Origin: Halobacterium sp. R2-5
GTDB taxonomy: Archaea; Halobacteriota; Halobacteria; Halobacteriales; Halobacteriaceae
Reading direction: 5' to 3'
DNA: 64,000 bases
Assembly: GCF_011734195.1 (NCBI RefSeq)
Contig: NZ_JAANTH010000001.1
Span: 558,001 to 622,000, forward strand
The first letter of the stretch is position 1. Each line of letters opens with the position of its first letter. Made by a program: the position numbers and the translations under genes. Shown here piece after piece: positions 1,374 through 4,220 of the stretch. The notes beneath the pieces were generated by a model. The model was not told the DNA's origin and made no database searches. It was given only the letters and a program-made list of their open reading frames with translations.

Positions 1374-1721
1374 ATGAGTACAGAGTCACAGCAGAGCGCA
1401 CAGAAGCCGATTCGCGTCGCCGACGGCGACGAACTCCGCGAAGTCCTCGACGAGCACGACCGTGTGCTCGTGGACTTCTGGACGAAGGGCTGCTCGCTCT
1501 GTCAGGCGATCGAGCCCGTGCTGGGCAACGTCGCCCGCGAAACGGGCATCACGGTCGCGATGGCCAACCCTGGCGACGACATCGCGCTCGTCGACGAGTG
1601 GAACGTCCGGAGCGCGCCGACGCTCGTGCTCGTCGAGGACGGCGAAGAAGTCGGGCGGCTCGCCGAGGGGTTCCAGGGCGGCGACGACATCGAGGCGTTC
1701 CTCGACGAGCACCTCGACTGA
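1374..1721 (+). CDS. Thioredoxin-family protein with CSLC active site
   Basis: 115-residue thioredoxin-fold protein. The strand VLVDFWTKGC leads into a CxxC at residues 40-43, and the cis-proline is in the later SAPTLV segment (about residues 81-86), so the fold and redox centre are intact. The active site is C-S-L-C rather than the C-G-P-C of typical thioredoxins, so its redox potential and partners may differ from a general thioredoxin. No signal peptide is seen, so it is likely cytoplasmic. It is convergent with the next gene, with only one base between the two stop codons. Confidence 0.85.
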   Translation: MSTESQQSAQKPIRVADGDELREVLDEHDRVLVDFWTKGCSLCQAIEPVLGNVARETGITVAMANPGDDIALVDEWNVRSAPTLVLVEDGEEVGRLAEGFQGGDDIEAFLDEHLD

Positions 1722-1722
1722 G

Positions 1723-2442
1723 CTAGTCGTCGCTCGCCGGCTCCTCGGGGACGTCACGCTCGGTGACGTCCGGGAGGTGGGGGTCGCGGTTCGGGTCCCG
1801 GCCGAACGCCGGCAGCCCGTCGCCTAGCTGTTCTTTGAGCACGCGACGCAGCCGGTTGAGGCTCGTCTTGTCGAGGCCGTAGCGCTCGGCGAGCTCCGCG
1901 AACGCGGGCTCGTCGGTGACGTCGTGGCTGCGATAGCGCTCGTAGAGGTCGTTCATGCGGTCGGCGTCGAGGTCGCCGGGGTCGAGGTCGTCGATGCCGA
2001 AGTACCGGCGGCGGTCGACGTCGACGACGTGGCGGATGACCACGAGCGCGACCTTCTCGATGGCGCGCTGGCTGCCGAACTCCCTGAGGTCGATGTTGCC
2101 CATCACGCCGAGCGCGACGTCGCGCTGCCACGGCGTCACGTCCACGGCGTTACAGAGCGCCTGCGTCGTGCGCAGGCGGTCGAGGTAGTGGGTGCGGCGG
2201 CTGTGGCCCTCGGTCGCGGTGTGGCGCTCCTCGTGGAGCCGCCGGATGCTCTCCGAGAGGTCCGCGTCCGGGGACTCCGCGCGCCCGATGACGGTCGCGC
2301 TCGGGGAGACGACGCCCCACTTTCGGACCGTGGTGTCGCGCTGGGCCTCCGCCCGGGAGAGCGCGCCCGAACCCGGCCGGTTCTCGACGCGGCGCTCGTC
2401 GCGGGTCTCCCAGCGGACGTGGTCGCCTCCGTCTGCACTCAT
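1723..2442 (-). CDS. Probable haloarchaeal RNA polymerase epsilon subunit
   Basis: 239-residue soluble acidic protein that I recognise as the family annotated in haloarchaea as DNA-directed RNA polymerase subunit epsilon. Recognisable blocks are RKWGVVSPSATVIGR (about residues 40-54), LDRLRTTQALCNAVDVTPWQ (about 86-105) and SQRAIEKVALVVIRHVVD (about 120-137). The last third looks like a helix-turn-helix (AELAERYGLDKTSLNRLRRVL). The chosen ATG removes 37 residues of low-complexity extension that run into a repeat array. The gene lies downstream of three copies of a 47-bp promoter-like repeat in the same orientation. The function assignment rests on family memory; the structural role in RNAP is inferred. 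Confidence 0.65.
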   Translation of the reverse strand: MSADGGDHVRWETRDERRVENRPGSGALSRAEAQRDTTVRKWGVVSPSATVIGRAESPDADLSESIRRLHEERHTATEGHSRRTHYLDRLRTTQALCNAVDVTPWQRDVALGVMGNIDLREFGSQRAIEKVALVVIRHVVDVDRRRYFGIDDLDPGDLDADRMNDLYERYRSHDVTDEPAFAELAERYGLDKTSLNRLRRVLKEQLGDGLPAFGRDPNRDPHLPDVTERDVPEEPASDD

Positions 2443-2491
2443 TGCACGTCCATCCGGCCTCGTCGGGTTTAAACTCTCGGCCGGCGACGCC

Positions 2492-2798
2492 GCGGCTACG
2501 CGGTCGGGGTCCCTGAGAAGCTCCTCGTATCTACCCCTTGTCGCCAGAACCACTTAAAGAGGGCCGGCGAGCGGTCTCGCTGCCGCTGGCCGCTGGAAAC
2601 CACAGCGCTGTCGCTACGAGGCGTAGTGCGCTGAGAAGCTCTTCGTATCTACCCCTTGTCGCCAGAATCACTTAAAGAGAATCGGGGGTGGCTCGCCGCT
2701 CGCGAGTTGGCCTCGGATTCCGAGAACAGCCACGGCTGGCCGGTGCAACGCTCGGGAGAAGTCCTTCGTATCTATCCTTTGTCGCCAGAACTACTTAA
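2492..2798 (-). repeat. Triple 47-bp promoter-like repeat array upstream of the epsilon gene
   Basis: Three near-identical 47-bp elements at 2513-2559, 2631-2677 and 2752-2798, all in the same orientation and all upstream of the minus-strand gene that starts at 2442. Read on the minus strand each begins with a TATA-like TTTAAGT, then a conserved TTCTGGCGACAA, then TAGATACGA and CTTCTC. The distance from TTTAAGT to AGATACG (about 26 nt) fits a haloarchaeal TATA box and start site. Each copy also shares extra downstream sequence with its counterpart in the second array. No intact reading frame crosses all copies (a TGA falls in copy 2). Function as tandem promoters is inference. Confidence 0.75.
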
Positions 2799-2841
2799 AG
2801 CGAGAGCCGCCCCGGCCGCACGCCGGGCCGTCCATACTGGT

Positions 2842-3468
2842 TTACTCGCCTTCCACGAGCCGCCGGAGCTGGGACGGCGGGACGGCGCCGCGGGCCGCGT
2901 AGCCGTCGTACGCGAACGTCGGCACGCCCGTGACGCCGTGCTCGCGCGCCTCACGGAACCGCTCGCGGAGCTCGTCGTGGTACTGCTCGGTCTCGACGAC
3001 CTCGCGGAGCTCGTCGGCGTCGAGGCCGACGTCGGCCGCGAGCTCCGCGAGCACGTCCACGTCGCCGATGTCGCGGCCGTTCTCCCAGAGCGCCTCGAAG
3101 ATCGCGACGTCGAACTCCAGCCACTGCTCGGGGTGCTCCTCGCGGACGTACAGCGACGCCGCCTGCGCGTCCAGCGAGTCCACGTCGCGGGAGAAGTCCA
3201 TCACCATCTCGTCGGCGCCGTACTCCTCGCGGAGGCGCTCGACGTTCTCGCGGGCCTGCTCGAAGTACTCGTCGTCCTTGCCGTCGTCGACGTCGTGGTC
3301 GATCTCGCCGTCCGGCCCGCGCTTCTGGGCGCGCAGATCGAAGGGATGCCAGTCGACGTTGAGTTCTTCCTCGCGCTCGTCCTGGTACGTCGACAGCGAC
3401 TGTCGGCCGAGGTAGCAGAACGGGCAGACGTAGTCCGAGTACACCGTGATAGCTTCGGCGTCGCTCAT
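2842..3468 (-). CDS. DsbA/FrnE-family thiol oxidoreductase
   Basis: 208-residue DsbA-superfamily protein of the FrnE type: a thioredoxin fold with an alpha-helical insertion. The redox motif C-P-F-C sits at residues 15-18 just after the first strand (VYSDYVCPFC), and the cis-proline is in GVTGVPTF near residue 184. There is no signal peptide, so it should act in the cytoplasm, as FrnE proteins do in stress-related thiol exchange. It is preceded by the second triple array of promoter-like repeats and followed by the first, so its expression is probably tied to the same signal as the epsilon gene. The exact substrate is unknown. Confidence 0.85.
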   Translation of the reverse strand: MSDAEAITVYSDYVCPFCYLGRQSLSTYQDEREEELNVDWHPFDLRAQKRGPDGEIDHDVDDGKDDEYFEQARENVERLREEYGADEMVMDFSRDVDSLDAQAASLYVREEHPEQWLEFDVAIFEALWENGRDIGDVDVLAELAADVGLDADELREVVETEQYHDELRERFREAREHGVTGVPTFAYDGYAARGAVPPSQLRRLVEGE

Positions 3469-3546
3469 CGCCTACACGTAGGACGCGCTCGCCGAAAAGG
3501 CCCGTGCTGGCGGGGGTTCCCGCTGGAGTCCGGCGTGGACGAGGCA

Positions 3547-3882
3547 GCGGCTACGCGGTCGGTGTCTCCGAGAAGTCCTTCGTATCTACCTCTTGTCGCC
3601 AGAATCACTTAAAGAAACGTCGGAGTTTGGGCTCGACACCGCTATCTCTCGTGCGTGGGAGAACGACGGCACCGCGGCTACGGGGCGTAGCGCGCTGAGA
3701 AGCTCTTCGTATCTATCCCTTGTCGCCAGAGATACTTAAAGCGAGAGCGGGGGTCGGACGACGGGGAGCGAACGGGCTCTCGTGGTTCGACAGGAGCCAC
3801 TCGACTGACAGCCACGGCTGGTCGGTGCAACGCTCGGGAGAAGTCCTTCGTATCTATCCCTTGTCGCCAGAACCACTTAAAC
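3547..3882 (-). repeat. Second triple 47-bp promoter-like repeat array, upstream of dsbA
   Basis: Three elements at 3568-3614, 3695-3741 and 3836-3882, same length and orientation as the first array, upstream of the minus-strand dsbA gene that starts at 3468. Copies pair one-to-one with the first array: 2513 with 3568, 2631 with 3695, and 2752 with 3836. Pairs share flanking words at identical distances, for example GCGGCTACGCGGTCGG ending 6 bp before copy 1 and copy 4, and ACAGCCACGGCTGG starting 28 bp before copy 3 and copy 6. This points to duplication of a whole three-element block. The intervals between copies differ (118 and 121 bp against 127 and 141 bp). Confidence 0.75.
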
Positions 3883-4220
3883 CGAGAACGGTCGGGGACC
3901 CGAGAAGATGTTCGCCACAACGCCTTCCACAGTTCGCGGTCACCGCTCACGTGCGTGGCTGGTGTCCCCCCGTACGGGTCCTCCGTACACGGCCAGTCCG
4001 CAGTGGTCTAACGTTCGATGGCGACACTCGACTCTCGCGCCGTCGGCCGGCAGCGGCCGGCCGCTCGGCGGAGTCTTTTCCCCTGTACCGACGTGCCGTG
4101 TCGGCCGTGGCCGCGTGCTCTTTGCCGGCCTCGACGCACAAGCGCGAGCGCTCGCCGTCGCCCGCCCTCAGGTAGCGTCGCATCCACGCGCTTTTTCCCG
4201 TCCGCCGTCTATCTGGTGCC
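3883..4220. other. Intergenic stretch without a recognised gene
   Basis: About 340 bp between the second repeat array and nucS. The reading frames that cross it have no family features and are shadows of repeats or of nucS. It contains several short GC-rich inverted words (for example around GGCCGGCAGCGGCCGGCC near 4045) but no tRNA, SRP or RNase P signature that I can see. The last 40 bp should hold the nucS promoter; a CTTTTTCCC tract lies near 4190. Confidence 0.4.

Follow-up and report, generated by a model that had tools for sequence, protein, structure and literature searches.

The window analysed here is a stretch of 64,000 nucleotides from Halobacterium sp. R2-5, near the start of which two minus-strand genes are each preceded by three copies of a 47-bp element (Table 1). 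The product of the first gene (1723-2442) has no match in Pfam or NCBIfam. Four plasmid records annotated as DNA-directed RNA polymerase subunit epsilon match it at 53-59% identity over 86-95%, and its homologue in Halobacterium salinarum is 68% identical. Based on this annotation and on the H. salinarum homologue, the gene is probably the orthologue of OE_1279R. Epsilon (rpoeps, OE_1279R) is an extra subunit of the Hbt. salinarum polymerase found in a subset of haloarchaea; native templates are transcribed efficiently by the epsilon-containing polymerase, and a 2021 review still described the biological relevance of the subunit as enigmatic (PMC8305020). The sequence-only reading had regarded the two genes behind the arrays as ordinary, a description that does not suit a pair in which one encodes a polymerase subunit and the other a DsbA/FrnE-like thioredoxin-fold protein. 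Another thioredoxin-fold gene (1374-1721, plus strand) stands tail to tail with the epsilon gene, and together with the neighbouring dsbA it forms a small thiol-redox cluster.

Table 1. Genes, TATA box and element copies around the two arrays. Read on the minus strand, the six copies begin at 2558, 2676, 2799, 3613, 3740 and 3881.
Feature	Position	Strand	Remarks
RNA polymerase subunit epsilon gene, 239 aa	1723..2442	-	homologues so annotated; cyclin-box fold predicted, residues 77-210
Separate leaderless-type TATA (TTTAAA), 31 nt upstream of epsilon ATG	2468..2473	-	conserved in 10 Halobacterium species
Element copy 1	2512..2558	-	epsilon-proximal; first T of TTTAAGT 116 nt upstream of ATG; predicted start near 2531
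Element copy 2	2630..2676	-	
Element copy 3	2753..2799	-	
DsbA/FrnE-like thioredoxin-fold protein gene, second target in Halobacterium	2842..3468	-	Pfam DSBA 5e-37
Element copy 4	3567..3613	-	dsbA-proximal; partner of copy 1
Element copy 5	3694..3740	-	partner of copy 2
Element copy 6	3835..3881	-	partner of copy 3; 95% over 80 nt

The six copies had been described as gap-free minus-strand repeats in two groups of three, and the alignment bears this out, with 38-45 of the 47 positions identical. Copies 1-3 lie upstream of the epsilon gene and copies 4-6 upstream of the DsbA-like gene. The element reads TTTAAGT-nn-YTCYSGYNAYAA-n4-TAGATACGA, and the consensus of the window copies (minus strand, 2440-3960) is TTTAAGT-nn-YTCTGGCGACAA-n4-TAGATACGA-RGRNCTTCTC. 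The promoter-like anatomy noticed earlier is present, namely a TATA-like TTTAAGT, a fixed gap and a start-site-like TAGATACGA. The proposed pairing of the copies also agrees with their 40-nt downstream flanks, which are identical at 28/40 (1-4), 26/40 (2-5) and 29/40 (3-6) positions, whereas every other pair shares 6-21/40. Duplication of a three-element block here means homologous order and not a perfect copy, as the spacings are 118 and 123 nt on the epsilon side and 127 and 141 nt on the dsbA side. Allowing up to three mismatches, a 34-nt pattern matches the 2.98-Mb genome at these six places only, and its reversed control gives no match in the same genome. The six-copy pattern is far beyond chance. 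In 10 of 12 Halobacterium species, copy 1 lies at the same distance from the ATG to within 1 nt.

Other readings of the arrays were rejected. Open reading frames through them are interrupted by stops in some copies or have no family match, and no credible Rfam match points to an RNA gene. A general RNA hairpin after the start region was likewise rejected, since the mean folding z-score of -0.07 is the same as upstream. A strong hairpin directly 3' of the start region does occur at three loci of Halarchaeum and three of genome G244, with matching changes in both arms between loci; it is absent in most other genera.

The element is widely conserved among haloarchaea. The 34-nt pattern matches in 23 of 59 genomes of the order and its reversed control in none. 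A wider IUPAC version, searched for exactly in one genome per species across 84,980 species, returned 75 stretches, all of them haloarchaeal, from Halobacterium, Halarchaeum, Halorussus, Haladaptatus, Halomicrococcus, Halococcus, Natrialba, Natrinema, Natronorubrum and other genera. Sixty-one instances served to build a sequence model of 46 positions. In 176 aligned instances, TTTAA, the TC of the middle block and its last A-AA, and the AGATACG region are near-invariant. The distance from the TATA-like box to the start region is fixed at about 26 nt and is gap-free in all main-type copies. A literature search on the motif letters found nothing in open-access papers, which is in keeping with the earlier impression that the motif had not been described. 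Not noticed at that stage were the connection with epsilon, the breadth of the conservation, the occurrence in further families and the separate leaderless-type TATA.

The placement of the copies is as expected of a core promoter, outside genes and mostly facing one. Among 257 distinct copies from all fetched loci, 3 fall within predicted open reading frames, and the next gene is on the same strand for 176 and convergent for 77 (about 30%), counts that are approximate because the gene calls come from a simple codon model. Random scatter, named at the outset as the outcome that would speak against a promoter, is not what the genome search found, given that 254 of the 257 copies are intergenic. 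Epsilon is the next gene for 92 copies, and 18 converge on its 3' end. Not every copy is followed by an obvious target promoter. Beyond epsilon, the targets include DsbA in Halobacterium, UbiA/MenA with MenC in Halorussus and an RlaP-family gene in Natrialba; GNAT, cupin, HTH_10, Na/Ca exchanger, BAAT-like and other genes were met once or a few times. These targets have no evident common pathway, and a recurrence of redox and quinone genes is weak. In three Halorussus loci the menA-menC operon, with its element, lies behind a pyridine-nucleotide-disulphide oxidoreductase gene and 130-170 kb from epsilon.

In five loci of Halorussus and Halomicrococcus, copies downstream of epsilon are aimed back into its 3' end, and the same layout is seen at two loci of Haladaptatus or its family. 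These copies look as if they make antisense RNA. Three loci of genome G081, alike among themselves, have elements convergent on the 3' end of TRAM-domain genes.

The start codon of epsilon has a TATA box of its own. An AT peak at -31 to -27 upstream of the epsilon ATG is found in other genera too, and this leaderless-type TATA is strongly conserved inside each genus while differing from genus to genus. Many of the other targets, like epsilon, also own a leaderless-type TATA near the start codon. Given this separate TATA at the epsilon start codon, the elements would be additional or regulatory promoters and not the sole ones.

The distribution of the element was compared with that of epsilon. 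In 135 genomes of the order that are at least 90% complete, element and epsilon apparently occur in the same 74. When the count was repeated on 392 genomes of the order, 177 had both, 209 had neither, 3 had the element only and 3 had epsilon only (Fisher p-value 1e-104, which ignores shared ancestry). Five of the six discordant genomes are explained or nearly so. G009 is a fragmented assembly, and its contig stops about 300 nt past the last element; G175 and G273 each have a single variant element, which follows a divergent epsilon paralogue at a distance of 50 nt; G284 has a variant element, below threshold, 127 nt upstream of epsilon; and G220 has a below-threshold core match elsewhere in the genome. 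In the sixth, G223, an epsilon homologue is present and no element was found. Because a linked site alone would render the co-occurrence trivial, unlinked copies were counted as well, and at least 41 genomes carry copies, 67 in all, that are separated from epsilon by more than 20 kb or placed on a different contig. In G018, elements are present and none is near epsilon. The association also holds inside several families. In f1, f4, f6, f7 and f14, some genera or species have both and others have neither; in f14, for instance, G061 and G081 have both and G038 and G052 neither. G244, from a family (f5) otherwise almost without epsilon, has epsilon together with 8 sites on five contigs. One exception aside, the element occurs exactly where the genome encodes epsilon, usually directly upstream of its gene.

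The type of element varies together with the epsilon protein. The epsilon tree conflicts with the host families: Halobacterium is joined with Natrialbaceae (99/92), Halarchaeum and a neighbour genus are joined with Halococcus-type and Haladaptataceae epsilon (100/97), and the Natrialbaceae genomes G099 and G284 fall with family f7 in a weaker grouping (89/94). The start-site half of the element tracks the epsilon clade and not the host family. It reads TAGATACGA in the main clade, AAGATATAGACGG in f4g40, TCRTAGTGAGG or close variants in f7, f8g85 and f4g49, and TCGTAGTAGAGG in f8g43. In G284, copies on contigs other than that of epsilon also have the start half of the epsilon clade. At the loci of distant epsilon paralogues, the core is found within one mismatch in 7 of 15, as compared with 1 match in 300 shuffles, and distant paralogues with low G+C often have a variant element close by. 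Divergent epsilon paralogues occur at seven loci in low-G+C stretches or on plasmids; they are annotated as hypothetical or as epsilon, and some have their own variant element while others have none.

How might a polymerase subunit be connected with a promoter element? The AF2 models, one for epsilon and one for a divergent paralogue (31-40% identity), contain one confident helical domain, residues 77-210 in epsilon, and not the two cyclin repeats of TFB/TFIIB. In a fold comparison with the two models, the first cyclin repeat of TFIIB/TFB/Brf ranked top, with Z values of 10.2 (yeast TFIIB, 2.4 Å, 96 aligned) and 11.7 (2.2 Å, 94 aligned). Other cyclins rank next, with Z of about 9, so the match is to the cyclin-box fold only, and Z values of this size for helical domains are suggestive only. 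Foldseek on the epsilon models gave nothing significant (E never below 0.2). No sequence homology to solved structures or to TFB was found: the epsilon and TFB profiles show no relation (hhalign probability 0.1-0.3%), and none of 54 epsilon members matches Pfam TFIIB (PF00382). In known complexes, the first TFIIB repeat touches DNA beside the TATA box. We infer that the invariant middle block would lie where such a repeat contacts DNA.

Several known systems resemble parts of this arrangement. The alternative TFB/TBP factors of Halobacterium have specific promoters, so that promoter classes are chosen by variant initiation factors, as may be the case here, and the predicted fold of epsilon resembles the first TFB cyclin repeat. 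Unlike TFB, however, epsilon has a single cyclin domain, lacks the Pfam match and the profile similarity, and is described as a polymerase subunit. Haloarchaeal rRNA operons have tandem promoters and, like the arrays, place several promoters in a row before one gene; the rRNA operons of this genome are without the element, because all six sites are in this locus. Autoregulated bacterial sigma factors carry their own promoter class, and epsilon would be similar in having its own promoter type before the factor gene, joint inheritance with it and paralogues with their own variants. The machineries are unrelated, and the likeness is an analogy only.

The closest counterpart with mapped starts is viral. 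Like the element, the class I intergenic repeats of the halovirus HF2 are repeated, intergenic, strand-specific and of similar length, with a TTTAAGT TATA box and a conserved start region (PMC8707807). Unlike the element, they have no YTCYSGYNAYAA block, are found in one virus group and have no link to epsilon. One of them, IR4, has mapped transcription starts and acts as a promoter in Haloferax volcanii without virus factors (PMC8707807). IR4 (L283 170-280) and the epsilon element of G284 (L255 2314-2351) have the TTTAAGT box in common and an identical start region, TTAGAGTGAGGAG; the spacing of box and start region differs by 2 nt between them. The HF2 gamma motif CGTCTNNTAGAG is not in the window copies, which have GACAANNNNTAGATACGA instead; only the G284 variant shares TTAGAGTGAGGAG. 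As IR4 works without the middle block, a TATA box and a start region can suffice without epsilon. A viral origin of the element was considered and rejected: the strict pattern matched no stretch in viral contigs, and a loose pattern gave AT-rich chance matches only.

On balance, we favour the explanation that the epsilon-containing polymerase uses the repeat as a core-promoter element and that epsilon is autoregulated. It builds on the conservation and position of the element, on its co-occurrence with epsilon, unlinked sites included, on the covariation of element type with epsilon clade and on the predicted fold; that the element is active as a promoter, that epsilon reads it directly and in which sense it regulates are inferred. 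TTTAAGT would be the TATA box and TAGATACGA the start-site region, and transcription is predicted to start at the G, about 27 nt past the first T. Between box and start, the invariant YTCYSGYNAYAA block would mark the promoter class and be read by epsilon, whose one TFIIB/TFB-like cyclin domain may act with TBP/TFB or replace part of TFB. The main conserved target would be the gene of epsilon itself, controlled from tandem copies that lie upstream of its basal leaderless promoter; in some genera a further copy, aimed back into its 3' end, would contribute. The resulting circuit would be an autoregulatory loop with a small lineage-specific regulon, comprising dsbA in Halobacterium, the menA-menC operon in Halorussus and the RlaP-type gene in Natrialba. 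Several observations speak against this explanation: epsilon and many targets own a leaderless TATA on which the element may act; the convergent copies, some antisense to epsilon, make up a sizeable share; IR4 does without the middle block; epsilon has no profile, Pfam or significant Foldseek match to TFB; and G223 and G018 depart from the general pattern.

The first of these observations leads to a less probable explanation, in which the element is an operator or upstream activating site for epsilon or a co-inherited factor and acts on the nearby leaderless promoter without being a promoter itself. In most genera examined, a conserved TATA lies between the elements and the epsilon ATG, at -31 to -27, and would suit this, as would the tandem copies typical of operators and an orientation bias that is no more than moderate. 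It accounts poorly for the gap-free TATA-to-start geometry, for a variant whose start half equals that of a mapped haloviral promoter, and for copies with no obvious target promoter behind them. The second observation bears on transcriptional interference. Tandem-upstream and antisense layouts would also fit negative feedback of this kind within the favoured circuit; that the elements are epsilon-driven promoters which mainly silence the leaderless epsilon promoter is improbable. The leaderless promoter does sit downstream of the arrays, and both the 18 copies that converge on the epsilon 3' end and the convergent copies at the TRAM genes of G081 are in line with it, but menA and dsbA look like ordinary activated genes.

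We also doubt that the element is read by another regulator of which epsilon is just the commonest target. The elements of G018 that are not near epsilon would be expected in that case, but a regulator with other targets should retain them in genomes without epsilon, and the 209 genomes without epsilon or element argue otherwise; in addition, divergent elements often lie beside divergent epsilon paralogues, and element type tracks epsilon clade even at unlinked sites. A mobile or repetitive intergenic sequence of the REP/MITE kind with no regulatory role is disfavoured as very improbable. Tandem copies and a spread on Haladaptatus plasmids and contigs are what it would predict, against a core that is invariant across families, an intergenic and promoter-like placement, a start-codon distance kept to 1 nt in most Halobacterium species, and no sign of element ends or terminal repeats.

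The explanation of the repeat as an epsilon-dependent promoter can be extended to the family. More tentatively, epsilon proteins could be archaeal promoter-selectivity factors, a functional counterpart of alternative sigma factors, each with a cognate element; paralogues on chromosomes and in mobile regions would have co-diverged with their elements, and epsilon would control its own gene and a small regulon. The repeat itself is a real and unusually well conserved promoter-like element that marks epsilon genomes. By tracking epsilon almost perfectly, it offers a candidate binding site, a set of target genes and a direct genetic test. If the proposal is true, archaea would possess a factor, associated with the polymerase, that selects its own class of promoters.
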